Source of the DNA: Xanthobacter agilis
GTDB taxonomy: Bacteria; Pseudomonadota; Alphaproteobacteria; Rhizobiales; Xanthobacteraceae
Direction of reading: 5' to 3'
DNA length: 64,000 bases
NCBI RefSeq assembly: GCF_021730435.1
Contig: NZ_JABWGX010000001.1
Coordinates: forward strand, 1-64,000
Below the pieces are notes generated by a model that ran no database searches, had not been told where the DNA came from, and saw only the letters and a list, made by a program, of their open reading frames with translations. The position numbers were made by a program, and so were the translations under genes. Shown in pieces: positions 40,183-55,795 of the stretch; position 1 is the stretch's first letter, and each line of letters starts with the position of its first letter.

Positions 40183-40194
40183 CTTGCTCTCAGA

Positions 40195-40473
40195 TCACTT
40201 GAGGTAGGTCCGGACGACCTCGATCAGGTCGGCGGCGCCTTTGGCACGCTCGGGATCGGGCTCGGCGTCCGGGTTCACGACGTGATGCCGGATGTGGTCT
40301 TCCATGAGCTCCGCCGTCAGTCCGGTGATGGCGCCGCGCATGGAGGCGACCAGCATCAGCACGTCGGTGCAGCCGAGCTCGGCTTCCAGCGCGCGCTCCA
40401 CGGCTTCGGCCTGCCCCTTGATCCGGCGAATGCGGGCGAGAAGCTTGGCCTTGTGCTTGATCGTGTGTGCCAT
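40195..40473 (-). CDS. rcnR: RcnR-like nickel/cobalt-responsive repressor
   Basis: A 92-residue CsoR/RcnR-family (DUF156) repressor. It has the residues that mark RcnR: His3 after Met-Ala, a Cys near position 35 (GCTDVLM) and DHIRHHVV near 60, with the helix RIRRIKGQAEAVERALEAEL. RcnR binds Ni(II) or Co(II) and leaves its operator, freeing rcnA. rcnA lies 12 bases downstream. The G-tract palindrome just upstream of its start (40488-40504) is the expected operator. Confidence 0.92.
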   Translation of the reverse strand: MAHTIKHKAKLLARIRRIKGQAEAVERALEAELGCTDVLMLVASMRGAITGLTAELMEDHIRHHVVNPDAEPDPERAKGAADLIEVVRTYLK

Positions 40474-40487
40474 TACGGATTTATAAT

Positions 40488-40504
40488 ATAGGGGGGTACC
40501 CTAT
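40488..40504. promoter_or_regulatory. Putative RcnR operator
   Basis: ATAGGG and CCCTAT form a perfect dyad around GGGTA, and GGGTACCC inside it is itself palindromic. A six-G tract next to an AT-rich flank is the hallmark of RcnR/CsoR operators. It lies 15 bases upstream of the rcnR start. Confidence 0.75.
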
Positions 40505-40783
40505 GTAAACCACTCCCCTTCGTCTGCCGGACCATTCTGGGCCTATGTCGAGGCCGGGAGCCCGGTGACCCTCGATCGATGTGGGGACTTGAACGGGGCT
40601 AACAGCTTGGCGCCGTGGGCCCGACCTGTCATCCGCTGACGCAACATCGGATGACGATGCCGGTCCCTCGGACGGTGTCGTCAAGTGTTTCTGCCAAGGG
40701 AATGTCCCGTTTCCCGAGTTTTCGACCCGAGAGCGGGCCTAACATTCCAGACATTGCCCACATTTGGCCACAGCCGAGAATGT
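40505..40783. other. Gene-free stretch right of rcnR
   Basis: 279 bases with no recognisable gene on either strand. The AT-rich part close to 40505 should hold the rcnR promoter; the rest contains only short frames of unnatural composition. Confidence 0.4.
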
Positions 40784-41206
40784 TCATTCGACCAAGATCG
40801 AGAGATTCTTGAGCGTAGATTGCAACCCGGCGTCGTGGTCTTCCTGCCGTATCCCTTCCGGAACATTTTCGCAGGTGATAGTCACCCTGGCTCCTCCGGG
40901 AACGGGCGAAAGGCTCCACTTCATCTTCATCTCGCCCGCGAAGGCCGGATCGTTTGATTCGAACCTAACAAGATGGACGATCTGCTCGTCCGGAGCCAAC
41001 TCCAGGAAACACCCTTCGACGCCATCGGTGTCTTCCGAGGTCTTACCGCGGGTAGATCGATCCCCTTTGGCATAGGTCAGCGCCATCCCGTAGGCTCCGC
41101 CCTGGCGCGGTTCGAATTTGTAGATGTGTCCCGTCATTCCCTCGGGCGGGAGCCACTTCACCCATGCCTCCGAGTCAGTCCTTCGTCCTCCCGATACGCC
41201 TTTCAT
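40784..41206 (-). pseudogene. SRPBCC (AHSA1-like) protein, 5' truncated
   Basis: The frame from about 41206 gives SEAWVKWLPPEGMTGHIYKF, ending QEDHDAGLQSTLKNLSILVE, the AHSA1-type SRPBCC fold that binds hydrophobic ligands. The first beta strand and helix expected before EAWVKWL (about 25 residues) are absent; instead the frame opens with MKGVSGGRRTD. Longer in-frame starts (41323, 41551) add unrelated sequence. Probably a truncated remnant; expression as a shorter protein cannot be excluded. Confidence 0.55.
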
Positions 41207-41526
41207 GAATCGGAATCCTTCGGCACCCCGTCCCCCACCGTGGACGGCTACAGCGATTTGGCCTGAATTCAAGTGCGCTGCCGACGTCGGCTCACACCCA
41301 TACCAGAAATCAAAACGCGACATTCGAAAGGCGCGTCTTTTCAGAGCGCGGTGGCAACCATGGGCATGACGAAGCCCCACTCGGGAGCGGGGGACCTCGT
41401 GAAGTGTCCGGCCCAGACCCAATCCATTCGAGGACGCAGGTGGGTGGCCAGCACGGAAATCGACAGGCGAGACCCAGCTCCGAGTTGACAAGCGCGGCGC
41501 GTTTTCCCGCCAACATTTCTTCCCTA
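41207..41526. other. Gene-free stretch upstream of the SRPBCC remnant
   Basis: No family could be recognised on either strand. The minus strand stays open here only as an extension of the SRPBCC frame and shows no conserved motif. This is probably where the missing 5' end of that gene was replaced by other DNA. Confidence 0.35.
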
Positions 41527-42222
41527 TCAGCCGAGAAGATGCGCCAGCCAATAGGCAGCACCTGCCGCGAGACCGCCAACCAACAAAGTCTGCACGGCGG
41601 ACCTGAAGGGGTTTACCCCCGTGAAGCGGCCTTTGATTGCACCGAAAATCGCCAGCGCGATCCCCGTAGTGAGCACGGACATCTTCAAGGCATCAGGGAT
41701 GTTCGATACGGCGATATAAGGCGCAAGCGGGATGGACCCGCCAACGAGATAAGCGATCGCGATGGTCGCAGCGCTCAGCGGAGCGCGTTTCGGATCCGGC
41801 TGTTCAAGGCCGAGCTCGAAGCGCATCATGAAATCCGTCCAGCGCCGGGGATTGGCGCTGATCGCGTCAACCACGTTCGTCAGAGCGGCGCCCTCAAGGC
41901 CGTAGGTTTCAAATATCTGCCTCACCTCGTTTACCTCGAAATCGCGCTTATGCTCGATTTCCCAAGTTTCACGCGCTTCCTCCGACTTGAAATGCTCAAT
42001 GTCCGTATGCGCGGCGAGATAACCGCCAAGCCCCATCGCGATGGCGCCGGCGGCGATCTCGGCAAGACCCGCAGTCACGATCACTCCGGTGTCACTGACG
42101 GCGGCAGACAAACCAGCGGCCAGGGCAAAAGGAACCGTCAGGCCGTCCGACATGCCGATGACGACGTCGCGGACGATCTCCGAGCCGCTAAAATGTTTTT
42201 CGATATGCGGAGTGGTCGGCAT
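41527..42222 (-). CDS. VIT1/CCC1-family metal transporter
   Basis: A 231-residue protein of the VIT1/CCC1 family: DVVIGMSDGLTVPFALAAGL at residues 19-38, EIAAGAIAMGLGGYLAAHTD near 55-74, the cytosolic metal-binding helix region FKSEEARETWEIEHKRDFEV near 78, and a final LLVGGLAAGAAYWLAHLLG helix. These proteins move Fe(II) or Mn(II) out of the cytosol. ATG at 42222 has AAGGA upstream; the longer frame to 42462 is not conserved. Fits an iron-handling role next to the rubrerythrin-like and P1B-5 genes of the same element. Confidence 0.9.
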   Translation of the reverse strand: MPTTPHIEKHFSGSEIVRDVVIGMSDGLTVPFALAAGLSAAVSDTGVIVTAGLAEIAAGAIAMGLGGYLAAHTDIEHFKSEEARETWEIEHKRDFEVNEVRQIFETYGLEGAALTNVVDAISANPRRWTDFMMRFELGLEQPDPKRAPLSAATIAIAYLVGGSIPLAPYIAVSNIPDALKMSVLTTGIALAIFGAIKGRFTGVNPFRSAVQTLLVGGLAAGAAYWLAHLLG

Positions 42223-42487
42223 CGATAAGGGTCCTTTTTGAGGGCTATCGAGAAAGCCCATCCGGTGGATGTGGCTTGACGTATTGGAACCTTCGACGGA
42301 GGTCGTGCCACTCGGCCAATCGCGGCTGCAATCTGGCAAACGAAGCTGACGGAAGACTGACGCAGCCCGTTTAGAATCGGCCATCAAGCGGCTTTTCGGC
42401 GATGAGGTATCGCAGGATTGTGCGCACAGTCCGTCGGCCCCGCCGGCGCACTGCATCTTCAAGCATGCGGAGGCTTGGAACGGCGGC
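42223..42487. other. Gene-free stretch
   Basis: 265 bases without recognisable features apart from the AAGGA ribosome site of the VIT1/CCC1 gene at its left end. Confidence 0.35.
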
Positions 42488-42874
42488 TCAAGGCTGTTCG
42501 GAAGAAACTGACGGCGACGGCCTGGTCTCGCGTTCTTGGCGCAGCCGGTACGAGACGGCGCCGTAGGTGGCGACGCAATAGGGGACCAGGAACGTCAAGC
42601 CTATCTTGGTCCAGTTGACCGAGCCGCCGCCCACGGCGGCATCGCCCTGGTTGATGAGATTGAGGATGGTGCCGACGACCACTGCCACCAGGAAGGAGCG
42701 GCACGGAATGCCGGACTGCGTTGCATAGGAAAGGAAACGCCGGATCATGCTGGTGCCGGATTTCTCGCCGCGCGAGCTGATGGGACACGTCACCCCGATA
42801 GCATTTGCATCAGGATTGCCGGCGCAATCCGGACCCTCGCACATCGTCGCCGTCGCATCAGTCGTCGTCTTCAT
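42488..42874 (-). CDS. NrtS-like small membrane protein
   Basis: A 128-residue protein whose C-terminal part matches NrtS-type proteins: YATQSGIPCRSFLVAVVVGT, ILNLINQGDAAVGGGSVNW and TKIGLTFLVPYCVATYGAVS, two membrane helices. The first 42 residues are Cys-containing and may not be translated; ATG at 42748 (MIRRFLSY) is an alternative start. NrtS proteins have been linked to nitrate/nitrite transport, but the basis here is only sequence resemblance. The stop is close to the PepSY-like gene start region on the same strand. Confidence 0.7.
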   Translation of the reverse strand: MKTTTDATATMCEGPDCAGNPDANAIGVTCPISSRGEKSGTSMIRRFLSYATQSGIPCRSFLVAVVVGTILNLINQGDAAVGGGSVNWTKIGLTFLVPYCVATYGAVSYRLRQERETRPSPSVSSEQP

Positions 42875-43145
42875 CGCCGTGCTTCCGCCGGATCTGTTCC
42901 AGGCTGGCGGGGTCGTACTTCGCCTTCAGGCTGTCGCCGCGCGCGTTGGTCGCCCTGACCTTGTAGCAGCCGTCGTCGGAGCGGATCGAGAGCACGGTCC
43001 ACCCCTCGCCCTCCAGCTTCTTCTGGAGCGCGTCGCGTGGCTGCCAGTCGGCCAGCGGCACGGTGCAGGCCCGATCGGCCGCCGCCGGTTCCGCGCCGAG
43101 GCACGCGGCGAAGACCACAATCGCGGCAACCCACGTGCGTCTCAC
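42858..43145 (-). CDS. Small exported PepSY-like protein
   Basis: A 95-residue protein from GTG 43145, which has GGAGGA 6 bases upstream. Signal peptide VAAIVVFAACLGAEPAAA, then a PepSY-like domain: LQKKLEGEGWTVLSIRSDDG followed by CYKVRATNARGDSLKAKYDP. It ends in an acidic tail. The longer frame running to 43781 is not conserved. Divergent from the response regulator gene at 43284; a paralogous design occurs at 54809-55084. PepSY domains of this kind accompany two-component systems and cytochrome or flavin membrane proteins; the function is unproven. Confidence 0.8.
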   Translation of the reverse strand: MRRTWVAAIVVFAACLGAEPAAADRACTVPLADWQPRDALQKKLEGEGWTVLSIRSDDGCYKVRATNARGDSLKAKYDPASLEQIRRKHGDEDDD

Positions 43146-43283
43146 CAAAGATCCTCCGAGGTGCGCAGCCCGCGAAATAGAAAGCACGCCCAACTGACGC
43201 CCACCTGAACGCTCATGCAAATTATCGGACCCCATCGGCTCGTCTCGCGCGCTAAATTGGCATGGAACACGCCGAGGCGACAC

Positions 43284-43955
43284 ATGCGGATCCTTCTCGT
43301 CGAAGATGACCCTGTCCTTGGGATGGCCGTGCGCGATCAGATCATCGCCGACGGGCATACGCCCGACTGGGTGACGCGTCTCGACGACGCCTCCGAGGCG
43401 ATCCATGCCGCCGCCTTCGAGCTGGTCCTGCTCGACCTGATGCTGCCGGACGGACGCGGACTCGATTTCCTGAAGCGCCTGAGGGTGGCGGGCGACGTCA
43501 CGCCCATCATCGTGCTGACGGCGCGGGACCAGATCTCGGACCGCATCGCGGCGCTCGATGCCGGCGCCGACGATTACCTGGTCAAGCCGTTCGACCTGTT
43601 CGAGCTCAGCGCGCGGATCCGGGCGGTGGGGCGGCGCTATGCCGGCAATCCCAACCCGCTCGTCACCCTCGGCGACATTGAGGTGGATCTTGCGGCCCGC
43701 TTGGTGCGGCGAGCGGGACGGCCTGTGGCGCTGACCGGCCGCGAATGGTCGCTGTTCGAGGCGTTCGTGCAACGGCCCCACCAGCTCATGTCGAAGCCGC
43801 AGCTCGAGGAGCGGCTCTATTCCTTCGACGCCGAGGTGGAGAGCAACACCATCGAGGTCTACATCGCCCGCCTGCGCAAGAAGCTCGGGGCGGAGGTGAT
43901 CGAGACGGTGCGCGGCATGGGCTATCGCCTCGGCCCGCCTGAGGCGGGCGCATGA
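43284..43955 (+). CDS. OmpR-family response regulator of the flavin redox cluster
   Basis: A 223-residue regulator: receiver HMRILLVEDDPVLGMAVRDQ, phosphoacceptor Asp in FELVLLDLMLPDGRGLDFLK, Lys in YLVKPFDLFELS; winged helix with LTGREWSLFEAFVQRPHQLM and VYIARLRKKLGAEVIETVRG. ATG at 43284 (MRILLVEDD) is the family start; the upstream extension from 43215 is unconserved. The stop overlaps the kinase gene (ATGA-type overlap at 43952). Divergent from the PepSY-like gene, sharing the 138-base promoter region. Confidence 0.92.
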   Translation: MRILLVEDDPVLGMAVRDQIIADGHTPDWVTRLDDASEAIHAAAFELVLLDLMLPDGRGLDFLKRLRVAGDVTPIIVLTARDQISDRIAALDAGADDYLVKPFDLFELSARIRAVGRRYAGNPNPLVTLGDIEVDLAARLVRRAGRPVALTGREWSLFEAFVQRPHQLMSKPQLEERLYSFDAEVESNTIEVYIARLRKKLGAEVIETVRGMGYRLGPPEAGA

Positions 43956-45319
43956 ACGAGGCGGTGGGCGACGGCCGCCGCGGTAGCGGGTGGAGCCTGC
44001 GCCTGCGCTTGGGATTGTGGCTGGCGCTGGCGGTCACCGCCCTGTGGCTCGCCGCCGCCACCGTGGCCGGGCTGGTGCTGCGCCGCGAGATCGGCGAGGT
44101 GTTCGACAGTGCCCTGCAGGAGGTGGCGCAGCGGGTGCTGCCGCTGGCCTATGCCGAACTGCTCTCGCGGGACGGAGGCAGCGCGACCCAGCACATGGCA
44201 CCTATCGGCCCCCACCGGGAATACATCACCTACGTGGTCCGCGACGCGGACGGCCGCGAGCTGCTCCAGTCGAGCGACGCCGACCTGATGCAGATCCCCC
44301 GCAGCCTCCCGCCGGGCTTCCACAGCACGGAGCGGCTGCGCACCTACACCGAGGCGGCCGTCAGGGGCACAATCCTGGTGACCACCGCCGAGGACCTCGG
44401 CCATCGCCGCGCGGCGGTCCGACGCGCGGTGGTCGCCCTGATCTGGCCCCTTGTCGCCCTGGTGCCCATCGCGCTCGTCGGGGTGTGGCTTTCCGTCCGC
44501 CTGTCCTTGAGGCCCGTCATCACCTTTCGCTCGGCGATCGAGGAACGGGGCCGCGGCAATCTCGCGCCGGTCGCAGCGGTGGGGCTGCCGGAGGAGATCG
44601 CACCCGTCGCGACATCGGTCAACGCCCTGCTGGAACGCCTGCGCGGTGCGCTCGAAGCCGAGCGCGGCTTCACCGCCAACAGCGCCCATGAGCTCCGGAC
44701 GCCCATCGCCGCCGCACTGGCGCAGACCCAGCGCCTCGTCGCTGAACTGCCGGGCGGCGCGCCCCGGGAACGGGCCCGTTCAGTGGCGGTCGCCCTGAAG
44801 CGTCTCTCGCGCTTGTCCGAGAAGCTGCTGCAGCTGGCCAAGGCCGAGGGCGGCGGCCTCCTCGCCGAAACCCCGACGCCCCTCGCGCCGGTGCTGCGCC
44901 ACGTGATCGCGGACATCGACCGGCTGACTGACCGGGGCGAGGACCTGATGGTCGAAATCCCGCCGGACAGCGGCCTTGTCTGCGACCTCGATCCGGACGC
45001 CTTCGCCATCCTCGCCCGCAATCTCATCGAGAATGCGTTGAAGCACGGCACGCCCGGCACGCCCGTGCGGGTGCGGCTGGCCGACGGCCTGTTCGAGGTC
45101 TCCAATGGCGGCCCCGTGGTGCCGGCCGACCGGCTGGCGCGCCTGATCCGCCCGTTCGAGCGCGGCCCGACGGGGGCGGAGGGCTCCGGCCTCGGCCTTG
45201 CCATCGTCGCCGCCATCTGCCGCGGCGCTGGCCTGACCCTCGACCTCGCCTCGCCGATCCCGGGCGAAGCCGACGGCTTCCGTGCCAGGGTGCGCTTCGC
45301 GGCCGTGCCTCAAGCCTGA
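43952..45319 (+). CDS. Sensor histidine kinase of the flavin redox cluster
   Basis: A 455-residue kinase: helix LGLWLALAVTALWLAAATVA, a periplasmic sensor of about 100 residues, second helix IWPLVALVPIALVGVWLSVR, HAMP, H-box ANSAHELRTPIAAALAQTQR, N-box ILARNLIENALKHG, then a degenerate G1 and G2 GSGLGLAIVAAI. The G1 Asp-x-Gly part is short. Overlaps its regulator. The location suggests that it senses a periplasmic redox or metal state and controls the downstream DUF2271-PepSY-ApbE genes. Confidence 0.9.
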   Translation: MNEAVGDGRRGSGWSLRLRLGLWLALAVTALWLAAATVAGLVLRREIGEVFDSALQEVAQRVLPLAYAELLSRDGGSATQHMAPIGPHREYITYVVRDADGRELLQSSDADLMQIPRSLPPGFHSTERLRTYTEAAVRGTILVTTAEDLGHRRAAVRRAVVALIWPLVALVPIALVGVWLSVRLSLRPVITFRSAIEERGRGNLAPVAAVGLPEEIAPVATSVNALLERLRGALEAERGFTANSAHELRTPIAAALAQTQRLVAELPGGAPRERARSVAVALKRLSRLSEKLLQLAKAEGGGLLAETPTPLAPVLRHVIADIDRLTDRGEDLMVEIPPDSGLVCDLDPDAFAILARNLIENALKHGTPGTPVRVRLADGLFEVSNGGPVVPADRLARLIRPFERGPTGAEGSGLGLAIVAAICRGAGLTLDLASPIPGEADGFRARVRFAAVPQA

Positions 45320-45412
45320 CGGGAAGCTGAACGCAGATCTGCATCGGCTTCAGGTGGCCGTCAGGTGCGAACGCGAGGGTGCTTCCGGTCAACACCAACC
45401 GGGAGATGGTCA

Positions 45413-45772
45413 ATGAAGACGCGCACCCTGATCGGAGCGGCGCTCCTGCTTTCCACCACGGGTATCGGCGTCGCACTGGCGGCGGCGGAGGCTGATCACC
45501 TGACCTCAAGCCATCACGAACGGCATGATGGCGCGACGTCATCCGCCATCGAGGGGCGCCCGATCCGCTTCGCCGAAGAGTCCCATGAGCGGCGTCGTGA
45601 CGGCGAGCATCGCGGACGCCGCCACCACGATGACGATGAGGATGATGGCGAAGACGACGAGGGTGGCCGCCGCGGCGCAATCCCGCAGGCCGGCCCGGCT
45701 GATCCCAATGCGCCGGTGCCCGACAACGGCTTCTTCAACGGCAAGGCCCGTCCCAAGGTCGAGGTGCAATGA
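45413..45772 (+). CDS. Exported His/Asp-rich small protein
   Basis: A 119-residue protein with signal peptide (TLIGAALLLSTTGIGVALAA). The mature part is His- and Asp-rich (SSHHERHDGATSS, RRHHDDDEDDGEDDEGG), then a Pro-rich tail. Low-complexity acidic and His stretches suggest metal (iron or calcium) binding. No family recognised. ATG at 45413 has GGGAGATGG upstream. It overlaps the extension of the next gene's frame but not its true start at 45817. Cotranscribed with the redox genes. Confidence 0.65.
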   Translation: MKTRTLIGAALLLSTTGIGVALAAAEADHLTSSHHERHDGATSSAIEGRPIRFAEESHERRRDGEHRGRRHHDDDEDDGEDDEGGRRGAIPQAGPADPNAPVPDNGFFNGKARPKVEVQ

Positions 45773-45816
45773 GCACCTCGCCGCGCCCGACCTTCTCTCC
45801 CTTGAGGAACAGACCG

Positions 45817-46287
45817 ATGAAATTCGTCCTCTCCGCTGTGGCCGCCACCACCGCCTTGATCGCCCCGGTGGTCGCCGAGGCCCGCCAAGTCACCTTCGAG
45901 ACCACCCTCAAGGCCTATGGCGGCAACGGCGCCTATGTGGTGCTCTACGTCACCGATGCCGCCGGCGTCTACAAGGGCACCTTGTGGATGGCCGGCGGCA
46001 AGGCGAAGTACTATCGCCACCTCAGCGACTGGCAGCGCGTCTCCGGCGGGCGACCGACCGAGATCGACGGCATCACCGGCGCCAGCATCGGCTCAGGCAG
46101 GACGCTGAAGATCAGCCTCGACCTCGCCGATGCCATGATCGACGCCGGATACAAGGTCCATGTCGACACCGCCGTGGAGGACGGCATGGACAATCCCTCC
46201 GAGGTGATCGTACCCCTCGATACCGCAGCCTCCGGCAAGCTGGCGCCGGGCAAGGGCTACGTCAAGTCCTTCACGGTCACCTTCTGA
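45817..46287 (+). CDS. Exported DUF2271 protein with apparent FMN-attachment motif
   Basis: A 156-residue protein with a signal peptide (LSAVAATTALIAPVVAEA, residues 4-21) and the DUF2271 domain (VVLYVTDAAGVYKGTLWMAG). At residues 84-90 it reads DGITGAS. This fits the ApbE-recognised motif D-x-x-(S/T)-G-A-(S/T), making Ser90 (codon 46084-46086) the candidate site for covalent FMN. The apbE gene lies two genes downstream. ATG at 45817 has GAGGAAC 7 bases upstream; the frame from 45769 adds 16 unconserved residues. Flavinylation here is inference from motif and neighbour genes. Confidence 0.82.
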   Translation: MKFVLSAVAATTALIAPVVAEARQVTFETTLKAYGGNGAYVVLYVTDAAGVYKGTLWMAGGKAKYYRHLSDWQRVSGGRPTEIDGITGASIGSGRTLKISLDLADAMIDAGYKVHVDTAVEDGMDNPSEVIVPLDTAASGKLAPGKGYVKSFTVTF

Positions 46288-46305
46288 AGCGATCGGACCT
46301 GATCC

Positions 46306-48492
46306 ATGCTTCGCCGCATTCATGCGCTGCCGGGCGTCGTGCTCGCGCTCGGCCTTACCGTCATGGCCCTCACCGGCGTGGCGCTTTCCGTGCAGCCGGC
46401 GCTCGACCGTCTCGCATCACCGGCGATTCCGGTCGGCACCAGCGTCGCCGCCCTCGCCGAGGCGGTGGCGGCGCGTCACCAGGGCATCGATTCGATCCGC
46501 GTGCGGCCGGACGGCGCCGTCACGGTCGCCTTCACCGACGGCGAAACGCGCGGCGTGGAGCGGGTCGATCCGGCGACCGGGGCCGGGCTTGGTCCCTACC
46601 ATGTCTCAGAAACGACACGCGTCATCACGAATCTGCATCGCGCGTTTCTGACCGGAGATGCGGGGCGGGCCGCCACCGGCGCCGGCGCGCTCGCCATGCT
46701 CGTGCTCACCGTCTCCGGCACCCTCCTCCTCGCCCGCCGCCTCGGCGGAGCGGGCGCGCTGCTGCAGTCCATCCGAGGCACACCGGCCCAGCGCTGGCAC
46801 GGCGAGCTCGGCCGTTTCGCTGCCGCTGGCCTCGTCCTCTCATCCCTCACGGGCGCGTGGATGTCGGCGAGCAGCTTCGGCCTCATCCCCGAACACGAAG
46901 CCGCCGCGCCCATGGTGTCGGCGAACGGCGGCGCGCCTGCTCCGGCCGGCACGCTGGCGGCGCTCAGGGCGACCGATGTGGCGAGCCTGCTCGAGCTGAC
47001 CTTCCCGGCACCCGACGATCCGACCGACACCTACGGCCTGCGGACAAGCCGGGGCGAGGCGCAGATCGATGCGGCGACGGGCGCGGAGCTGTCCTTCACC
47101 CCGGCGACGACGCTCGACCGCCTGAACGGCATGATCCGTACCCTCCACACCGGCCAGGGCGCCTGGGTGCTCGGGCTCGTGCTCGGCCTTTCGGCGGCGG
47201 CGGTTCCGGTGCTCGGCGCGACCGGCATCGCAATGTGGTGGCGCCGCCGCGCCGCCCGGCCGCGCATCGCGATGAACGCGCCCGCCCGTGCTGCCGACAC
47301 CGTCCTCCTGGTGGGCAGCGAAGGCAATTCCACCTGGGGCTTCGCCGCGACGCTGCACGACGCGCTGACTCGCGCCGGCCACCATGTCCACACCGCGGCC
47401 ATGAACGATCTTCAGCCGTTTTCCGCCGTCACCGAACGCCTGCTGCTCCTGGCCGCGACCCATGGCGACGGAGCGGCGCCCGCCTCGGCGACGGTGTTCC
47501 TGTCCCGGCTCGCGCGGCAGGAACGCCGCGTGCCGGTGGCGGTGCTCGGCTTCGGCGACCGCTGCTTTCCGCATTTCTGCGGCTACGCCGAGGAGGTGTC
47601 GGCTGCGCTCACGGCAAACGGCTGGCCGCAGCTCCTGCCGATGAAGCGCATCGATCGGCGTTCGGCGCAGGAGTTCGCCCAATGGGGCCGCGACCTCGGT
47701 ACCGTGCTCGGTCACGACCTCAAGCTCGAGCACGTCGCCGAGCCGCCGAAGACGGTCGCGCTCGAACTCGTCGAACGCGAGGACTATGGCGTGGCCGTCG
47801 GCGCGCCGGTGGCGATCCTGCGCTTCCGGAGGCCAGGAACGGACGGCAAGGCCGGACGCCTGCCGTCGTTCGAGCCCGGCGACCTCGTCGGTATCCTGCC
47901 GCCGGGCCATCCGATGCCGCGCTTCTATTCGCTGGCGTCGTCGTCGTGCTACGGGATGCTGGAGATCTGCGTCCGCCTGCGCGCAGGCGGGCTCTGCTCG
48001 ACCTTCCTGCACGCTCTCGCTCCCGGCGATCGCGTGGAGGCTTTCATCCGCGCCAACCCGACCTTCCGGCCGGCCGCGGGACGGGCGCCGCTCATCCTGA
48101 TCGGCGCCGGCGCCGGCATCGGTCCGCTCGCCGGCCTGGTGCGCGCCAATGCGGCCGGTCGCCCGGTCCACCTCTACTGGGGCGGCCGCAGCCCGTCGTC
48201 GGATTTTCTCTACGAGCACGAACTGGCCCAGCATCTCGCCGAGAAACGCCTGACCTCGCTCCAGACCGCCTTCTCACGCGGTCCGGATGGCGGCGCCTAT
48301 GTGCAGGATCGCATCGCCGCCGACGCGCCTCGCCTGCGCGAGCTGATCCGGCAGGGCGCGCAAATCCTGGTGTGCGGCGGCCGTGACATGGCCCAGGCCG
48401 TGACCTGGGCACTCGATCCGATCGTGCGGCCACTCGGCCTCGACCTTCCCACCCTCAAGTCGTCTGGACGCTATGTCGAAGATGTCTACTGA
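46306..48492 (+). CDS. PepSY membrane protein fused to flavodoxin and reductase domains (PiuB-like)
   Basis: A 728-residue fusion. The first 320 residues form a PepSY-associated membrane part (helices VVLALGLTVMALTGVALSVQ, GAGALAMLVLTVSGTLLLAR, ALGLVLGLSAAAVPVLGATG) with His residues suited to heme (ITNLHRAFL, LHTGQGAWVLG). Residues 335-460 form a flavodoxin-like FMN domain (LLVGSEGNSTWGFAATLHDA). From 470 a sulfite/cytochrome-P450-reductase-type FAD/NADPH module follows: RFYSLASSS, GAGAGIGPLAGLV and YWGGRSPSSDFLY. It resembles Pseudomonas PiuB-type oxidoreductases that move electrons from NADPH across the membrane. Ends overlapping apbE. Confidence 0.85.
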   Translation: MLRRIHALPGVVLALGLTVMALTGVALSVQPALDRLASPAIPVGTSVAALAEAVAARHQGIDSIRVRPDGAVTVAFTDGETRGVERVDPATGAGLGPYHVSETTRVITNLHRAFLTGDAGRAATGAGALAMLVLTVSGTLLLARRLGGAGALLQSIRGTPAQRWHGELGRFAAAGLVLSSLTGAWMSASSFGLIPEHEAAAPMVSANGGAPAPAGTLAALRATDVASLLELTFPAPDDPTDTYGLRTSRGEAQIDAATGAELSFTPATTLDRLNGMIRTLHTGQGAWVLGLVLGLSAAAVPVLGATGIAMWWRRRAARPRIAMNAPARAADTVLLVGSEGNSTWGFAATLHDALTRAGHHVHTAAMNDLQPFSAVTERLLLLAATHGDGAAPASATVFLSRLARQERRVPVAVLGFGDRCFPHFCGYAEEVSAALTANGWPQLLPMKRIDRRSAQEFAQWGRDLGTVLGHDLKLEHVAEPPKTVALELVEREDYGVAVGAPVAILRFRRPGTDGKAGRLPSFEPGDLVGILPPGHPMPRFYSLASSSCYGMLEICVRLRAGGLCSTFLHALAPGDRVEAFIRANPTFRPAAGRAPLILIGAGAGIGPLAGLVRANAAGRPVHLYWGGRSPSSDFLYEHELAQHLAEKRLTSLQTAFSRGPDGGAYVQDRIAADAPRLRELIRQGAQILVCGGRDMAQAVTWALDPIVRPLGLDLPTLKSSGRYVEDVY

Positions 48493-49429
48493 TTCAGCTC
48501 AAGGCGCGCTGGAGCCCCGCCGCCACGCCCTCAGCGGCCCCGCCATGGGCGCGCGCTGGTCGGCGGTGTTTTTCGCCGTAGGCGGCGTGGACGAGGGGGC
48601 GCTCACCCGCCGCCTTCAGGGCACCCTCGACCGTGTCGAGCGCCAGATGTCCACCTGGCGGCCGGATTCCGACCTGGAGCAGCTCAACGCCGCCCCCCTC
48701 GGCACCTGGGTGGCCATTCCCCGCGAGCTGATGGGCGTGCTCGCCGCGGCCCTTGAGATCGGCCGCCTGTCGGGGGGCGCGTTCGACATCGGCGTGGGCG
48801 ATCTGGTCCAGGCCTGGGGCTTCGGGTGCGGCACGCGCGTGCCCGACGGCGGACGCATCGCCGCGCTTGCGGGGCGTCCCTCCTTCGAGCCGCCGAAGAC
48901 CCTGCAGCTCGACCCGGCGGGCTACCGCGCGCGCCGGCTGGCGCCGCTGCGGCTCGATCTGTCCGGCATCGCCAAGGGCTTCGGCGTGGACGAGCTGGCG
49001 CGGGAGATGACGGAGGCGGGCCTGTCCTCTTGGCTCGTGGGCATCGACGGGGAGATGCGCGCGGCGGGCACGAAGCCGGATGGCCGACCCTGGGCGGTCG
49101 CCCACGAGACGCCAGTCCCCGGCGTGCGGGACGTCCTCGGGGTGCTGGAGCTGTCCGGTGCCGCCGTCGCAACCTCGGGCAGCTATCGCCATCAGGTGGA
49201 GGTGGCGGGCAGGAGGCTCTCCCACACCATGGACCCCTCGCGCGGCGCGCCATTGGAGAACGACCTCGCCGCCGTCACCGTGCTCAGCGACACCTGCATG
49301 GCCGCCGATGCCTGGGCGACGGCGCTGATGGTGCGCGGCGCGCAGGACGGCCCGGCCCTCGCCCGCCGGCTCGGCCTCGCCGCGCTGTTCGTCGGGAGCG
49401 AGGGAGAGGTGGTGGCGACGTGGCCGTGA
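48473..49429 (+). CDS. apbE: FAD:protein FMN transferase (ApbE)
   Basis: A 318-residue ApbE without a signal peptide, so probably cytoplasmic or anchored differently from the usual lipoprotein. Seen: FDIGVGDLVQAWGFGCG near residue 100, DLSGIAKGFGVDELA near 162, LVGIDGEMRAAG near 190, ATSGSYRHQ near 238, HTMDPSRGAPL near 254 and the magnesium-site region DTCMAADAWATALMV. ApbE moves FMN from FAD to Thr/Ser of target proteins; DUF2271 is the obvious target here. It overlaps the reductase gene by 20 bases; the family normally acts outside the membrane, so the missing signal is noteworthy. Confidence 0.9.
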   Translation: MSKMSTDSAQGALEPRRHALSGPAMGARWSAVFFAVGGVDEGALTRRLQGTLDRVERQMSTWRPDSDLEQLNAAPLGTWVAIPRELMGVLAAALEIGRLSGGAFDIGVGDLVQAWGFGCGTRVPDGGRIAALAGRPSFEPPKTLQLDPAGYRARRLAPLRLDLSGIAKGFGVDELAREMTEAGLSSWLVGIDGEMRAAGTKPDGRPWAVAHETPVPGVRDVLGVLELSGAAVATSGSYRHQVEVAGRRLSHTMDPSRGAPLENDLAAVTVLSDTCMAADAWATALMVRGAQDGPALARRLGLAALFVGSEGEVVATWP

Positions 49430-49587
49430 CCAGCCATGCCTCATGGACTGGCGGCGCAATCCTGCCTCGGGTCCATTCCCTTGCGTCCTCTCAATGCGGC
49501 CGCAGCCGTTTCCGGGTGTTCTTCCCGGTGGAGGTGCCCGCTCAGGATCAATGGCGAACCGTCGGGGTGTGAAAGGAAACCGGAGAC

Positions 49588-50940
49588 ATGAGACACATCA
49601 AGCAGGTCCTTGTTGGCCTCCTCGCCCTCGTATCGCTGCTGTGGGTCGCGGCCGAGCCCGGGGTGTTCCAGTCAGCCGGGTTCTTCGCGATTCGGGCGGT
49701 CGCCGTGCAGTACACGGGCGTGCTCGCCATCGCGCTCATGAGCGTGGCGATGATGCTGGCGCTGCGTCCGCGTTGGCCCGAGCGCTGGATGGGCGGCCTC
49801 GACAAGATGTACCGGCTCCACAAATGGCTCGGCATCACCGCGCTCATCGTTGCCATCATCCACTGGCTGTGGACGCAGGGGCCGAAGTGGGCCGTGGGCT
49901 GGGGTCTTCTGGAGCGGCCCGCCCGTGGGGACCGCCCGCCCATCGAAAACCAGGTGGAGGCCGCTTTCTCAAGCCTGCGCGGCACCGCCGAGGGAGTGGG
50001 CGAATGGGCTTTCTATGCAGTTGTGGCGCTGATCGCGCTGGCGCTGGTCCGGGCCTTTCCCTACCGCTTGTTCTATAAGACCCATCGCCTGCTGGCGCTC
50101 GCTTATCTGGTGCTGATGTTCCACTCGGTGGTGCTCCTGACCCTCGCCGACTGGATGACGCCGCTCGGCGCCGCGATGGCGGTGCTGCTGGCCGGCGGCA
50201 CCTTCTCGGCCGGGGTGGTGGTGGTGCGCCGCGTCGGCGCAGCGCGGCAGGTGAAGGGACGCATCGCCGAACTCACCTATTATCCGGGCGTGAAGGCGCT
50301 CGAGACCGTCATCGACGTGCCCGCCGGCTGGCCGGGCCACCGTCCCGGACAATTCGCCTTCGCCATGTCGGATGCCTCCGAAGGCGCGCATCCCTACACC
50401 ATCGCCTCGGGCTGGCACCCGGACCATCCGCGGATCACCTTCGTGACCAAGGAACTGGGCGACCACACCAGGGGGCTGAAGGAGCGGCTCAAGGTGGGCC
50501 AGGAGGTGCGGGTGGAGGGGCCATATGGCTGCTTCACCTTCGACGACGATTGCCGCAGCCAGATCTGGATCGGTGGCGGCATCGGTATCACGCCGTTCAT
50601 CGCCCGCATGAAGCACATGGCCTTGCGCGGCGAGGCGCCCGACTGGCCGCAGGGCCAGGTCGCCGATCTGTTCCACACCACCAGCGATGTGGACGAGGTG
50701 GCGCTTGCAAAGCTCGCCGAGGATGCCAGAGCTGCCCAGGTACAATTGCATCTGCTGATCGACGCGCGCGATGGCCGGCTGACCGGCGCCCGCATCCGCG
50801 ATGCCGTGCCGGACTGGCGTGACGCCAGCATCTGGTTCTGCGGCCCGGCCGGCTTCGGGGCGGCGCTGCGGGCCGATTTCGCCACCGAGGGCTTCCCGGT
50901 GGATAAGCGCTTCCACCAGGAACTCTTCGACATGCGGTGA
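49588..50940 (+). CDS. Ferric-reductase-like transmembrane flavoprotein
   Basis: A 450-residue protein. The membrane part (residues 1-205, about six helices) has ferric-reductase-type His ligands in YRLHKWLGITALIVAIIHWL and KTHRLLALAYLVLMFHSVVL. The C-terminal part (215-450) is an FAD/NAD(P)H module with HRPGQFAFAM, the dinucleotide motif GGGIGITPFIA near 330 and terminal PVDKRFHQELFDMR. It can pass electrons from NAD(P)H to hemes and the periplasmic side. With ApbE and the PepSY fusion it suggests two routes feeding one flavinylated periplasmic carrier. Start ATG 49588 follows GGAGAC. Confidence 0.88.
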   Translation: MRHIKQVLVGLLALVSLLWVAAEPGVFQSAGFFAIRAVAVQYTGVLAIALMSVAMMLALRPRWPERWMGGLDKMYRLHKWLGITALIVAIIHWLWTQGPKWAVGWGLLERPARGDRPPIENQVEAAFSSLRGTAEGVGEWAFYAVVALIALALVRAFPYRLFYKTHRLLALAYLVLMFHSVVLLTLADWMTPLGAAMAVLLAGGTFSAGVVVVRRVGAARQVKGRIAELTYYPGVKALETVIDVPAGWPGHRPGQFAFAMSDASEGAHPYTIASGWHPDHPRITFVTKELGDHTRGLKERLKVGQEVRVEGPYGCFTFDDDCRSQIWIGGGIGITPFIARMKHMALRGEAPDWPQGQVADLFHTTSDVDEVALAKLAEDARAAQVQLHLLIDARDGRLTGARIRDAVPDWRDASIWFCGPAGFGAALRADFATEGFPVDKRFHQELFDMR

Positions 50941-50981
50941 GGGGCCTCGGCACACTCGCAATGGATGCGTTCAGGCTCGTG

Positions 50982-51165
50982 TCACCGATCCGTCTTCGGA
51001 AAAACGAGGCGGATGCGCACACCGCGGCCGGGGGCGTCCTCGACGCGCACGGCTCCGCCGTGCAGCGTCATGATGGTGGAAACGATGGCGAGCCTCGGCC
51101 CGGCACCGTCGGGCCGGCTTCGGTCCAGGCGGTGGAAGCGATTGAGAAGACCGGCTCCGCGATCT
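50982..51165 (-). pseudogene. Histidine kinase C-terminal fragment
   Basis: About 58 codons read as the end of a kinase ATPase domain: FHRLDRSRPDGAG, then RLAIVSTIMTLHGGAVRVED and VRIRLVFPKTDR. They match the C-terminus of the complete kinase at 52145-53509 (FRRLDKSASDGAGLGLAIVS) except that the G2 motif is damaged (GAGPRLAIV for GAGLGLAIV). Nothing of the kinase core precedes it. A remnant of a duplicated or replaced two-component gene. Confidence 0.7.
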
Positions 51166-51360
51166 TCCGGTGTCCGATCCGCGAGCGCCCTGCGGCAACG
51201 ACATCGAGTCGCAGGGCGCCGCGATCGGCTGCACGAATTTCGCGGCTGCGCTCGATTAAGCGACTCCGCAATCTCTCAAGTCTTTCGGCAGACAGTGCCG
51301 GTACGCCAAATTCGGGCGGCAGGCTGATATCGGGAAAGGTCGTATGAGACCGTCCGTCTC
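51166..51360. other. Unassigned stretch right of the kinase fragment
   Basis: The minus strand reads as a short Arg-rich helical frame (RSRLIERSREIRAADRGALR) that I cannot place. It may be further kinase or regulator debris. No complete gene. Confidence 0.35.
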
Positions 51361-52020
51361 TTACTCTTTGACCCGCGTGAGCGTGCTGATATCGGTATGG
51401 GTGAATGGCTTACCATACACATGCAGGATCGTTTCCTGCGTGTATTGCATGGTATTTCCAGACAACTCATAAGTGACAGTGAATTTTTCCGTCTTGTCGT
51501 TTGCTGCCATATAGTCCGATTGGCCGATGCCCACGTTCTGGGCCGTCAGGGTAAGCGTGGTATCCGGTTTTCCCGTTGCCACAACGCACACAGCCCTGGG
51601 GATGCAAAACGAGTTATATATTGTCTGATTTGCCTTGTCGTAAATGAGATATCCGACTTGGTCGTGAAACTGTTTCTTGTCGCTCTTGCGGAAAACCATC
51701 TGGTGATAAAAAATTGCCGTCAGATGCTGGCTGCTCGCGTTTGTGGCATCGCCGGCTGGCGTGAATCTTATGGTCTCGTAATAAGGCGAAGCAGCACCGC
51801 CTCCTTTACCCACTTCGGAACCTTCCCGGCCGGGAGCCACGTCCAATCCTTCGTCGTCCTGAGTCTTCCAGGTCCCGACGAACTTGGCGAGTGGGCCGTA
51901 ATCCAGCCCGTTGATAACAGTTTCTGTCTCAGATGTAGCGGCAACGGCGTATAGTGCGGGGAGCATGAGGCCAGCAATCGCGCTGGCAACGAGGAGGCTT
52001 CGGGAGAATTTCACGATCAA
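51361..52020 (-). CDS. Exported heme-binding beta-barrel (nitrobindin-like) protein
   Basis: A 219-residue protein with a signal peptide (SLLVASAIAGLMLPALYAVA). The mature part reads LDYGPLAKFVGTWKTQDDEG, then YYETIRFTPAGDATNASSQH and YHQMVFRKSDKKQFHDQVGY, as in FABP/nitrobindin-like heme-binding barrels (DUF1794-like). The GTW motif and His near the end of the second stretch are consistent with such a fold. The sequence is lower in GC than its neighbours. Heme or fatty-acid binding is inferred; export is unusual for the family. It lies between the kinase remnant and a complete two-component system. Confidence 0.65.
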   Translation of the reverse strand: MIVKFSRSLLVASAIAGLMLPALYAVAATSETETVINGLDYGPLAKFVGTWKTQDDEGLDVAPGREGSEVGKGGGAASPYYETIRFTPAGDATNASSQHLTAIFYHQMVFRKSDKKQFHDQVGYLIYDKANQTIYNSFCIPRAVCVVATGKPDTTLTLTAQNVGIGQSDYMAANDKTEKFTVTYELSGNTMQYTQETILHVYGKPFTHTDISTLTRVKE

Positions 52021-52144
52021 TCTCCTGACTGGATATCAGCTTTCATCAGAACAACGGCTCATCGACAGCTCGATAGCATGAGCGCTCTGACAAAAGCCTG
52101 ACGATGGGCCGAACTCGGGGAGCTCTTCGCCAATGCGTTGAGGC

Positions 52145-53509
52145 TCACCCGCACGGGAAGATGAGACGCATGAGCGCCCCGCCGCCGGGTGCGTCCTCAA
52201 TCCGGACATCGCCGTTGTGCAGCTCCATGGTGGTGGAGACGATCGCGAGGCCCAGCCCCGCCCCGTCCGAAGCACTTTTGTCCAGGCGCCGAAAGCGTTC
52301 CAGCACGTCGCCGCGCCGCTCCGGGGGGATGCCGGGGCCATGGTCGCGCACCGCGCACTGGCCCCCAGGGCCCGTAGTCACCTCGACGGCGGTGCCCGCC
52401 GGCGTGTGGGCCAAAGCATTTTCCACGAGGTTCCGCAACGCCCGGCCGATGGCGTCGCCGTGGCCGTGCACGCGCGCCGCTCCCGCGTCCCGAAAGGCGA
52501 TGGTTCGACCGCGCATGACCGCGAGCGGCGTCAGCTCAGCCACCACCTCGCGGGCGATGGCGCCCAGATCGGCCTGGGCATCCGGCGCGAGTTCCAATGC
52601 GGTCGCGTGCGACATGTCGAGCATCTGGTCTACAAGGCGTTTCATGCGCTGCGCGTCGGCCACGAGCTTTGCCTTCTCGACGCTGTCCGGCAGCTTGCCG
52701 ATGCTCAGCATCATGATGGCGAGCGGAGTGCGCAGCTCATGGGCCGCATCCCCCGCGAAGTCCCTCAGGGCGCGCACGGAGCGCTCGATGCGCGCCAGCA
52801 TGGCGTTGACCGCCGTCACCAGCGCCTGCACCTCCCGCAGCGAGGGCTCCGCCCTGATCCGCGTGGACACCTGGGCCGGATCAATCCGGTCGATGGCGGC
52901 GATGGTGCTCTCGAGCGGCTTCAGCGTGGTGCGCACCACGCTGAAATTGAACAGGAGGAACATGAGCGAGAGCAGGATGAGCGGCAAGATCACGTGGAAG
53001 CGGATCTCGTTGAAGATGACCGGCACGAACGGCCGGAAGCCCTCGCCGGCGATGGCCACCGTGATCCAGTAGGGATGCCGTCCGACCTCGACGCGGCGGG
53101 TGCCGGTAAGCAGGAAGCGGCTGTCCCAGCTCTCGCGCTGGGTCCGGATGACCAGGAACGACAGGGGCGGCTCGTCGGCGATCTTCAGGCTGGCGTCGTC
53201 GAACCGCGCCACCACCGCGCCGCCGCGCTCGTGGATCAGGAAGGCCCGCCGTGTGCCGGAGGCGAGCGGATATTGCAGGTCTTCCGAAACCGGGTTGCCG
53301 GCGGCCCCCCTCATCTGCGGGATCTCCCGGGCGATCCGGTCCGCCTCCGCGGTCACGAGCAGGTGGTCGAGCTCGTTGGGATTGTTGACATACATCCGCA
53401 CGACGACGAGCAGCTCGACCACCAGGAAGACGAGCCCCACCAGAGCGAGGCGCACTGAGAGGCGAAAGAAGAGGCTGCGCGGCACGACGGGCAGGCGGCT
53501 CGCGGTCAT
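52145..53509 (-). CDS. Sensor histidine kinase of the cytochrome b module
   Basis: A 454-residue kinase: helix LFFRLSVRLALVGLVFLVVE, a periplasmic sensor of about 130 residues, helix ILPLILLSLMFLLFNFSVVR, HAMP, H-box GDAAHELRTPLAIMMLSIGK, N-box ALRNLVENALAHT, G1 DHGPGIPPE and G2 GAGLGLAIVSTTM, all intact. Overlaps the regulator by 4 bases. It resembles the broken kinase at 50982 in its C-terminus. Confidence 0.9.
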   Translation of the reverse strand: MTASRLPVVPRSLFFRLSVRLALVGLVFLVVELLVVVRMYVNNPNELDHLLVTAEADRIAREIPQMRGAAGNPVSEDLQYPLASGTRRAFLIHERGGAVVARFDDASLKIADEPPLSFLVIRTQRESWDSRFLLTGTRRVEVGRHPYWITVAIAGEGFRPFVPVIFNEIRFHVILPLILLSLMFLLFNFSVVRTTLKPLESTIAAIDRIDPAQVSTRIRAEPSLREVQALVTAVNAMLARIERSVRALRDFAGDAAHELRTPLAIMMLSIGKLPDSVEKAKLVADAQRMKRLVDQMLDMSHATALELAPDAQADLGAIAREVVAELTPLAVMRGRTIAFRDAGAARVHGHGDAIGRALRNLVENALAHTPAGTAVEVTTGPGGQCAVRDHGPGIPPERRGDVLERFRRLDKSASDGAGLGLAIVSTTMELHNGDVRIEDAPGGGALMRLIFPCG

Positions 53510-54225: not shown

Positions 54226-54805
54226 CCGTTCCGCGGGCGCGGCGCTTGCGCCCCGTGATCATGGCGAGCACCAGATTTTCCCGGTGTGCCAAGCTTTCTG
54301 CAATGGCGGCGAGCACGTGCACCGCCGCCATGGCGAGAATGAGGTTGGCGGCGATCTCATGGGCTTCCTCCACCCACTCCTTGCCCCAGAAAGCATCGAT
54401 GGTCTGCATCCAGCCGGTGAGGCAGGTGGCGGCGAGCAGACCCATGAGGAGGAGCATCATCACCGCCCCGGCGGGATTGTGGCCGACATAGCGTCGGTCA
54501 CGCCGGTCGAGCACCGCGCGCATATGGTCAGCGAAGGTCCGCGGGGACGGAACGAAATCGCGGAACCGTGCGTGAACGGTGCCGACGAAGCCCCACACCA
54601 CGCGAACGGCGAGCAGGGCGGCGACGGTGTAGCCTACGTAGCGGTGGAGCGCTTTGCCGTCCTCCAGCACGAAGCTGTTGAGCACGACGCCGAGCACCAC
54701 CGTCCAGTGGAAGATCCGCACCAGCGGATCCCACACCGGAACGGTATAGCGGACGTGCGCGGCGGCGCGCGCTGATGCCTCGGATCGAGGGGGCAGCATG
54801 GCCAT
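54191..54805 (-). CDS. Membrane b-type cytochrome (cytochrome b561-like)
   Basis: A 204-residue, four-helix membrane protein. Heme ligand candidates: His in VRIFHWTVVLGVV, in KALHRYVGYTVAALLAVRVV and in EAHEIAANLILAMAAVHVLA. The motif WDPLVRIFHW and VGYTVAALLAVRVVWGFVG are typical of the b561/Ni-Fe-hydrogenase-like cytochrome b family. Probably a quinone-linked electron carrier. Its end overlaps the response regulator, and it lies 3 bases downstream of the PepSY-like gene, so all are co-expressed. Confidence 0.88.
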   Translation of the reverse strand: MAMLPPRSEASARAAAHVRYTVPVWDPLVRIFHWTVVLGVVLNSFVLEDGKALHRYVGYTVAALLAVRVVWGFVGTVHARFRDFVPSPRTFADHMRAVLDRRDRRYVGHNPAGAVMMLLLMGLLAATCLTGWMQTIDAFWGKEWVEEAHEIAANLILAMAAVHVLAAIAESLAHRENLVLAMITGRKRRARGTDVDHAGSARGG

Positions 54806-54808
54806 GGT

Positions 54809-55788: not shown

Positions 55789-55795
55789 GGTTTCT

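Follow-up and report, generated by a model that had tools for sequence, protein, structure and literature searches.

The Cluster and Its Genes

A 64,000-nucleotide (nt) stretch of the Xanthobacter agilis genome (RefSeq assembly GCF_021730435.1, contig NZ_JABWGX010000001.1, positions 1 to 64,000; hereafter the window, whose numbering is used throughout) carries a cluster of eight genes that appears to encode a transmembrane reductase system, in which flavin mononucleotide (FMN) would be attached to an exported DUF2271 protein by ApbE, a flavin adenine dinucleotide (FAD):protein FMN transferase, next to a two-component system (TCS). A preliminary description made from the sequence had listed these genes, and each of them is present where it was placed, with agreeing calls in a Pfam profile search; the same gene set is found again in a second copy in the same genome and in many relatives, a recurrence that speaks against chance. 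The eight genes are as follows.

42858..43145, minus strand: small exported PepSY_2 protein, 95 aa (Pfam PF13670, E 1.4e-25)
43284..43955, plus strand: response regulator, OmpR/PmrA/QseB-like (Pfam Response_reg and Trans_reg_C)
43952..45319, plus strand: sensor histidine kinase, QseC-like (Pfam HisKA/HATPase)
45413..45772, plus strand: exported His/Asp-rich peptide with the conserved tail GPADPNAPVPDNGFFNGKARPKVEVQ, start at 45413 set by conservation
45817..46287, plus strand: DUF2271 protein with a Sec-type leader (Pfam PF10029, E 2e-35)
46306..48492, plus strand: PepSY_TM, Flavodoxin_1 and NAD_binding_1 fusion (Pfam), FNR-type reductase, 728 aa
48473..49429, plus strand: ApbE FAD:protein FMN transferase, no signal peptide (Pfam E 1.3e-75)
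49588..50940, plus strand: ferric-reductase/NOX-like membrane flavocytochrome, facultative (Pfam PF01794, Ferric_reduct, E 2e-20)

Two starts, those of the PepSY_2 and His/Asp-rich peptide genes, are shifted relative to the first listing. The PepSY_2 gene is divergent from the regulator gene, and its product, which has an acidic C-terminus, probably starts at the GTG at 43145, read from the sequence behind GGAGG, which gives the 95 residues. The regulator and kinase genes overlap by 4 nt; the best NCBIfam match of the regulator is PmrA (200.9 bits, under the family cut-off of 330), and the QseC-like match of the kinase (146.8 bits) also lies under its family cut-off. The gaps of 44 and 18 nt that separate the genes of the His/Asp-rich peptide, the DUF2271 protein and the fusion fit a single transcript, and the fusion and ApbE genes overlap by 20 nt. 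The second copy (L005, on the 12.3-kb contig C46) is a complete cluster of 57-91% protein identity without the ferric-reductase-like gene, and is flanked on both sides by open reading frames (ORFs) read as transposases, a name taken from their translations with no family search.

A Survey of DUF2271 Loci and the Carrier Clade

Genomes with DUF2271 (PF10029) above cut-off numbered 10/192 in the class, 60/397 in the order and 75/397 in the phylum, and these sets overlap. The 161 stretches surveyed are 140 fetched loci, 18 around relatives, L005 (the second copy), L037 and the window itself; 160 of them contain DUF2271, and L053, which lies at a contig edge and has no DUF2271, was excluded. Pfam matches under the cut-off, four partial order-survey matches of 27-28 bits, two fragments of genome G548 and G933 of the phylum survey were not fetched. 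A fusion locus was defined as one with the PepSY_TM-flavodoxin-FNR chain on the same strand and at most 7 kb from DUF2271, which holds for 87 of the 160 loci and leaves 73 others; the window, L037 and L039 are near-identical, yet are counted separately among the 87. Profiles made from the proteins of the window served to look for neighbors up to 7 kb away from DUF2271. Several loci stop at contig edges, so that absences there carry little weight, and as the loci share descent, Fisher values overstate their independence.

As for the co-occurrence that the preliminary description had proposed to survey, the fusion chain accompanies DUF2271 at 87 of 160 loci, and apbE is linked in 84 of these 87. 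The DUF2271 protein of the window has the motif DGITGAS at residues 84-90, with Ser90 as the candidate FMN acceptor, exactly as first described, and no second [ST]GA[ST] exists in a set of 13 proteins from this region. A tree built from 156 distinct DUF2271 domains, which has few columns, weak inner forks and midpoint rooting, falls into two deep sides with 100/100 support. The first, of 88 rows, unites all 84 fusion-type rows with L064, L095 and L107 (short contigs) and L166, and the second, of 68 rows, has none with a fusion. The acceptor column of the fusion-type proteins is Ser in 87/87, within a motif that keeps G in 87, A in 86 and T/S in 87 of the 87, and the residue six positions ahead of the acceptor is D (71/87) or N (13/87); in the non-fusion loci, the acceptor is Thr in 67/73 and the G-A is often replaced. 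Loss of the motif at the aligned position in homologs had been named beforehand as an observation that would speak against its role, and in the fusion loci that position is kept. In the present sample, the fusion-associated DUF2271 clade with its invariant putative Ser acceptor is new relative to the literature on the family.

Outside this clade, many ApbE-linked non-fusion DUF2271 proteins (L057-L059, L116-L196) show T/S-G-P-T or S-S-A-T where [ST]GA[ST] would be expected, which suggests that the flavinylation motif may be looser than published. In single-chain ApbE-DUF2271 proteins (L123, L131, L138, L139, L145, L178, L180), a leader is present and the acceptor motif is degenerate (for example SRPT, TRPT, SGPT, TKPS or ARET).

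The idea that ApbE modifies DUF2271 and that PepSY membrane proteins feed it was published in 2021 (Meheust et al., PMC8238504), and the central inference of the preliminary description was therefore already in print. That study counted 3220 PepSY-like clusters (2833 with DUF2271), 167 clusters with VIT1 and 1077 PepSY-like genes that carry an NAD-binding domain, and flavinylation by the cognate ApbE on a Thr was demonstrated for the DUF2271 protein of Amantichitinum ursilacus (PMC8238504). The cluster shares with these systems the PepSY membrane protein, DUF2271 and ApbE: a PF03929 protein is encoded in the cluster with ApbE and DUF2271, and of the ApbE, FMN-bind, DUF2271 and DUF3570 genes, at least one of which should carry a signal peptide or lipidation in a PepSY-like system, DUF2271 has a leader as judged by hydropathy. 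It differs in that Fur repression was described for PepSY-like systems in two species and the acceptor tested was a Thr, whereas the protein here belongs to the Ser clade (PMC8238504). The available parts of that account contain no dedicated TCS, operator, Ser clade or rule of a cytosolic ApbE, and it is the Ser clade, the operator and the question of the compartment that are additions to the known family.

A Two-Component System with a Predicted Operator

Response regulator and kinase genes both occur within 7 kb of DUF2271 in 77/87 fusion loci and in 10/73 others, and a PepSY_2 gene does so in 57/87 vs 2/73. In aligned promoters of the genus orthologs, the two intergenic regions, ahead of the regulator and ahead of the structural genes, have a direct repeat in common, CTGAC-N6-CTGAA, of which the window holds three exact copies.

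43194..43209, plus strand: operator box CTGACGCCCACCTGAA, between the PepSY_2 and regulator genes
45316..45331, plus strand: operator box CTGACGGGAAGCTGAA, ahead of the structural genes; 4 nt at its start overlap the end of the kinase gene
45349..45364, minus strand: second structural-gene operator box CTGACGGCCACCTGAA, 33 bp from the CTGACGGGAAGCTGAA box

With at most one mismatch, the window has 13 matches against 2.5 expected, a number that 0/100 shuffles reach. The 4.8-Mb genome has 8 exact copies and none of the reversed control; 6/8 lie at the two cluster copies, three at each. Fusion loci contain 162 exact copies in 68/87 loci (reversed control 0/87), while non-fusion loci have 6 copies in 4/73 (reversed control 1/73, with a single copy), and L107 and L166, two of the four operator-bearing non-fusion loci, sit in the fusion clade of the tree. 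Scored domains contain none of the 162 copies, and 160 of them occupy interdomain positions inside the operon span extended by 400 bp; plus/minus pairs spaced by 33 bp were seen 43 times in the fusion loci. Eight plasmid loci, 7 of them annotated, were fetched once the operator pattern was fixed, and 6/8 have the exact operator, with 17 copies in all. By annotation, 15 of the 17 lie in gaps at regulator, PepSY or structural-gene promoters; of the remaining copies, one is within the kinase gene of L236 and one is just upstream of a P-type ATPase gene in L234. In the latter (Paracoccus sp. TOH plasmid p3), the operator at 972-987 precedes a cation-translocating P-type ATPase gene (1075-2946), which suggests that the ATPase is part of the regulon there.

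The seventh and eighth genomic copies lie outside the clusters. One is within a frame read as trigger factor and looks like chance, and the other (L197, contig C24, 2013-2028) precedes a catechol-dioxygenase-like ORF by about 33 nt; it is either chance or a further target, and may be a genuine site. Gene names in L197 and L198 were likewise read from translations. Such a copy upstream of an unrelated ORF, together with the wide occurrence of PepSY-TCS modules in general (PMC12714742), would fit a TCS that is merely a neighbor with a regulon of its own and exerts no specific control on the cluster. This is very improbable, as the same operator stands at both promoters, 6/8 genomic copies are at the clusters, and the operator is also absent in 8 of the 10 fusion loci in which no regulator-kinase pair was detected. 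The shared operator and its genomic distribution instead argue that the adjacent TCS controls the cluster, as the preliminary description had claimed in calling it the cluster's own. The cluster is thus probably under a dedicated TCS, with an operator recognized by comparison and a predicted binding of the regulator to it. Among the papers listed from the mostly open-access literature on PepSY, ApbE, flavinylation, two-component systems and response regulators, none was recognized as describing a dedicated TCS for such a cluster.

Two known systems offer points of comparison. In DbfQRS of Vibrio cholerae, a small PepSY protein directly tunes the kinase, with functions in biofilm formation and the envelope (PMC12714742). 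As in DbfQRS and PA2658/2659-BqsRS, a small periplasmic PepSY protein is here encoded beside a regulator and a kinase, an arrangement that sometimes involves opposite strands (PMC12714742); it lies within four genes of both, the domain being PepSY_2 here and IPR025711 in that paper. Unlike the present cluster, DbfQRS has no flavinylation operon in what is available of its description (PMC12714742). By this precedent, the divergent PepSY_2 gene likely has a kinase-tuning role, and its product is a candidate periplasmic modulator of the kinase. FeuN/FeuPQ was considered as a further named relative and was not adopted. The second comparison is BqsRS of Pseudomonas aeruginosa, whose operator TTAAG-N6-TTAAG consists of two pentamers 6 bp apart (PMC4682146), and in which the periplasmic domain of BqsS binds Fe(II) through Glu48 of E45xxE48 (PMC12666569). 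The N6 spacing is the same and the pentamer differs, and an E46xxE49 of the present kinase, located past the first hydrophobic stretch, is close in residue numbering to the BqsS motif. Glu46 is found in 77/78 and Glu49 in 61/78 kinase homologs, and the likeness to the Fe(II) site may serve as a lead. The BqsR-type repeat itself was rejected as the operator here, with 6 matches in the window (at most 2 mismatches) vs 4.5 expected and none in the cluster.

The His/Asp-rich peptide, for which no Pfam family was found at E 0.01, ends in the same tail as an intact PepSY_2 protein of L050, where it forms the C-terminus. With a pattern that misses diverged tails, 37/87 fusion loci show a tailed protein of this kind at most 4.5 kb away from DUF2271, and in 5 of these the PepSY_2 domain is still recognized. 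The peptide is probably a PepSY_2 relative that has kept leader, acidic linker and tail and has lost the domain.

A second PepSY_2-regulator-kinase module lies at 52145-55234 of the window (PepSY_2 54809-55234, regulator 53506-54225, kinase 52145-53509) and adjoins a THAP4/nitrobindin-like gene (51361-52020). Repeats of the form CTGAC-N6-CTGAC occur at 52087, 55156 and 55235, and also at 42346 (4 exact copies in the window vs 0.09 expected), and are perhaps the operator of this second module.

ApbE and the Compartment of Flavinylation

The ApbE of the cluster is complete by its Pfam alignment (266/266 positions) and matches a flavin transferase of solved structure, PDB 5mgy (E 7.6e-59, residues 14-315 of 318). 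Its ATG lies within the last codons of the fusion gene and the open frame above has no start codon, which confirms the earlier observation that it has no signal peptide. This had been called unusual for an ApbE with an exported target; it is instead the rule in the group. With a leader called where the 11-residue mean hydropathy reaches at least 1.7 in the segment from the first in-frame start to the domain (a hydropathy measure, not SignalP), 0/82 scored fusion-linked ApbEs have one (L044 and L071, of the 84, are unscored), and the fusion-type DUF2271 proteins have one in 85/87 cases at 1.7 and in 86/87 at 1.6. In 70/84 loci, the first 20 or 17 nt of apbE are shared with the conserved end of the fusion gene. 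Two ApbEs, one per cluster and neither with a leader, were detected in the X. agilis genome, where no FMN_bind protein was found, and 17/25 searched genomes with a fusion locus carry a single ApbE, which in 15 is the leaderless one of the operon.

Several simpler accounts of the missing leader were rejected. A frame error hiding it is opposed by the lack of a start codon in the upstream in-frame stretch and by the conservation of the overlapping start. The conserved MSKMST(D/E) N-terminus of ApbE, considered as a localization signal, is explained by the overlap with the end codons of the fusion (YVEDVY-stop). Tat export of a folded, flavinylated DUF2271 protein was discarded, as 1/87 N-termini fit a crude RR pattern, and this upstream of the likely start, and no other target of ApbE came to light in the region, where the 13 proteins have no [ST]GA[ST] save that of DUF2271.

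Canonical ApbEs are lipoproteins that act on secreted targets, while the cytosolic ApbE of Klebsiella pneumoniae acts on a soluble fumarate reductase (PMC12052999). The ApbE described here resembles the latter in having no signal peptide and differs in that its candidate target has a leader (PMC12052999). The signal-truncated DUF2271 protein and ApbE, co-expressed in Escherichia coli, gave flavinylation (PMC8238504), and the reaction can thus run inside the cell without either leader. The preferred reading is that the DUF2271 precursor probably receives its FMN in the cytosol, ahead of Sec export; otherwise, ApbE would exit by an unrecognized route, or DUF2271 would be modified only where a periplasmic ApbE exists.

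Exit of ApbE from the cytosol by such a route, followed by flavinylation in the periplasm as in the textbook case, accords with the canonical lipoproteins (PMC12052999) and with genomes G744 and G908, which have a fusion-type DUF2271 and no linked apbE, and in which the single ApbE detected bears a lipoprotein-like leader, so that members of this clade may also be flavinylated in the periplasm. This route is nonetheless unlikely given the 82/82 leaderless linked ApbEs and the overlap of their starts with the fusion gene; the same method detects leaders on unlinked ApbEs, namely these two lipoprotein-like ones and three others with Tat-like leaders, and is thus able to see them. Among the non-fusion ApbEs (n=50; 5 unscored), 12 reach 1.7 and 14 reach 1.6; eight of the 14 were judged by eye to be true leaders (the seven single-chain ApbE-DUF2271 proteins and the lipoprotein-like L175) and six not (L122, L127, L137, L152, L164, L171).

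A DUF2271 protein that is not flavinylated here, with a motif of structural meaning and an ApbE devoted to another cytosolic target, would remove the mismatch between the compartments of ApbE and DUF2271 and has its precedent in the Klebsiella fumarate reductase (PMC12052999). It is less likely still, as apbE is linked in 84/87 loci, the acceptor is invariant, its motif is the only one among the 13 proteins, and no FMN_bind domain turned up in the genome; further types of target outside the region were not searched.

Returning to attachment before export, the comprehensive version of the proposal, with clade-wide cytosolic tagging by a coupled ApbE, Sec export of the flavin-bearing chain and a dedicated PepSY-tuned two-component switch with its own operator, is put forward tentatively and at clearly less than even odds.

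The Fusion Protein and the Proposed Redox Chain

Across the 87 fusion proteins, His 6, 111, 165 and 281 and the residues of the FAD/NADP-type motifs are at least 95% conserved, and a terminal aromatic residue, Tyr in the window, is present in 86/87. The C-terminal half matches diflavin enzymes of the sulfite reductase/P450 reductase type. FoxB, HiuB and CrpH belong to the same PepSY_TM family and have conserved haem-ligand His (PMC13001220, PMC13038864), whereas no flavodoxin-FNR fusion, DUF2271 or ApbE is described for HiuB and CrpH in the available parts of these sources. Judging from the domains and the four conserved His, the fusion protein may ligate haem as FoxB does.

The ferric-reductase-like protein combines the PF01794 domain with an FAD/NAD module, as expected of a NOX/ferric reductase. 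It matches PDB 8qq7/8qt6, which we take to be the pneumococcal NOX, at E ~5e-25 over residues 136-428, and its FAD_binding_8 match is below cut-off (19.4 vs 22 bits). Its gene is present in 24/87 fusion loci vs 4/73 others. In the annotated plasmid loci, a gene of the ferric reductase-like/ferredoxin reductase family is part of the operon in 3/7, and a cytochrome b is similarly placed in another; on Azospirillum and Sphingobium plasmids, the ferric-reductase-like part is the only part of the cluster that is matched (~74% nt identity). As an obligate member of the cluster, the gene was rejected on account of the 24/87 loci and its occurrence apart from the cluster, and by sequence comparison it is an optional partner. 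The single redox chain of the preliminary description thus holds for the electron chain with a flavinylated carrier and does not hold for the ferric-reductase-like protein as an integral part; likewise, the outline of the overall interpretation stands, being largely published for the family, without this gene as an integral member.

Metal Context and Probable Horizontal Transfer

The cluster adjoins a gene of the VIT1 family, which has been described as a ferrous iron transporter (PMC8238504).

41527..42360, minus strand: VIT1-family transporter (Pfam PF01988, E 1.2e-67)

A Ni/Co efflux protein, a CusA/CzcA pump with a CzcB-like adaptor and a CopA-like ATPase are also encoded beside the cluster in the window. 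Neighbor counts for metal genes leave out the window row and thus refer to 86 fusion loci. Within the fetched stretches, VIT1 occurs in 18/86 fusion loci vs 0/73 others, P-type ATPase in 8/86 vs 1/73 (and in 4/7 annotated plasmid loci) and NicO in 5/86 vs 0/73; CusA/CzcA, at 2/86 vs 2/73, is not enriched. Iron reduction was proposed for PepSY-like flavinylation systems (PMC8238504), and the likely function of the cluster is an extracytoplasmic reduction of Fe(III) or Cu(II) in metal stress, with iron as the best guess and copper second, the two not being firmly distinguished.

An operon for copper redox instead of iron, in which Cu(II) would be reduced to Cu(I) for export or for the supply of an oxidase, draws on the CopA-like ATPase and the CusA/CzcA pump of the same stretch, on the enrichment of P-type ATPases, on the operator ahead of the ATPase gene on the Paracoccus plasmid, and on CrpH, another PepSY_TM protein, which is a proposed copper reductase (PMC13038864). 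It is rather unlikely, because the link to VIT1 is stronger, CusA/CzcA is not enriched, and the metal genes of the window may reflect an island effect. For the removal of peroxide, which the preliminary description had also mentioned, no evidence turned up, and no search was aimed at it.

The region appears to be mobile. Positions 41158-56485 have 98.2% nt identity to Chelatococcus asaccharovorans (Chelatococcaceae in NCBI) and positions 38339-41176 have 92.2%, whereas the fusion proteins of X. agilis and of the genus member taken as X. autotrophicus Py2 are only 72-81% identical. This contrast, drawn from the present stretch and the fusion proteins rather than from whole genomes, points to a likely recent horizontal transfer of a metal-resistance region. 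Trb/VirB conjugation genes lie at 57148-61480, and positions 38339-56485 (and L037) with these adjoining genes form a probable integrative conjugative element with metal-resistance genes. Among plasmids, 95 records encode a protein related to the fusion at E 1e-60 or better.

A Proposed Signal-Controlled Transmembrane Reductase Operon

Taken together, we propose that the cluster is a dedicated, signal-controlled transmembrane reductase operon, and assign to this mechanism as a whole a probability of about 0.6. An envelope or metal signal would be sensed by the kinase, whose activity the small PepSY_2 protein of the periplasm probably tunes, and the phosphorylated regulator would bind the CTGAC-N6-CTGAA repeats at its own and the structural-gene promoters. 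The fusion protein would draw electrons from NAD(P)H and pass them, by way of FAD and then FMN, to two membrane haems, as the domains and the four His suggest; the exported DUF2271 protein would receive them on the FMN of its Ser90. This FMN would be attached by the cytosolic ApbE, probably translationally coupled to the fusion, most likely while the DUF2271 protein is still a precursor that awaits or undergoes Sec export. The reduced carrier would then reduce a metal in the periplasm, for which Fe(III) is the likeliest candidate and Cu(II) the next. The ferric-reductase-like protein may provide an optional second point of electron entry.

A number of observations weigh against this mechanism or its parts. 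Of the 77 fusion loci with regulator and kinase, 11 lack an exact operator, most of them retaining a one-mismatch form, and conversely the operator is kept in 2/10 loci without a detected pair, namely L045 (genome G004), where a cluster without detected adjacent two-component genes has two operator boxes, and L056, a short contig on which a kinase is retained. Two of the 8 plasmid loci, both from Burkholderiales, are without an exact operator (one of the two has a one-mismatch form between regulator and PepSY gene), one exact copy of L236 is inside the kinase gene, and the copy ahead of the dioxygenase-like ORF indicates that the regulon may be wider. At a hydropathy threshold of 1.6, one linked ApbE (L114) passes as having a leader, and G744 and G908 are suggestive of a periplasmic ApbE in the same clade. 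We know of no flavinylation test for the Ser clade, the demonstrated case having a Thr acceptor. A match to FoxB did not appear by sequence, as fusion residues 1-328 found no PDB chain up to E 10, and the identity of the metal is deduced from neighbors, a neighborhood that would also suit copper, nickel or cobalt.

With the predicted TCS and operator, an entry in the catalog of PepSY-like flavinylation systems becomes a regulon, and the predicted operator can be used to find the inducing signal. ApbE has mostly been described as secreted and membrane-bound, and a leaderless ApbE with a leader-bearing substrate exposes a problem of compartments. If the flavin is indeed attached before Sec export, this would change where extracytoplasmic flavoproteins are thought to be assembled, and how cells avoid exporting FAD.

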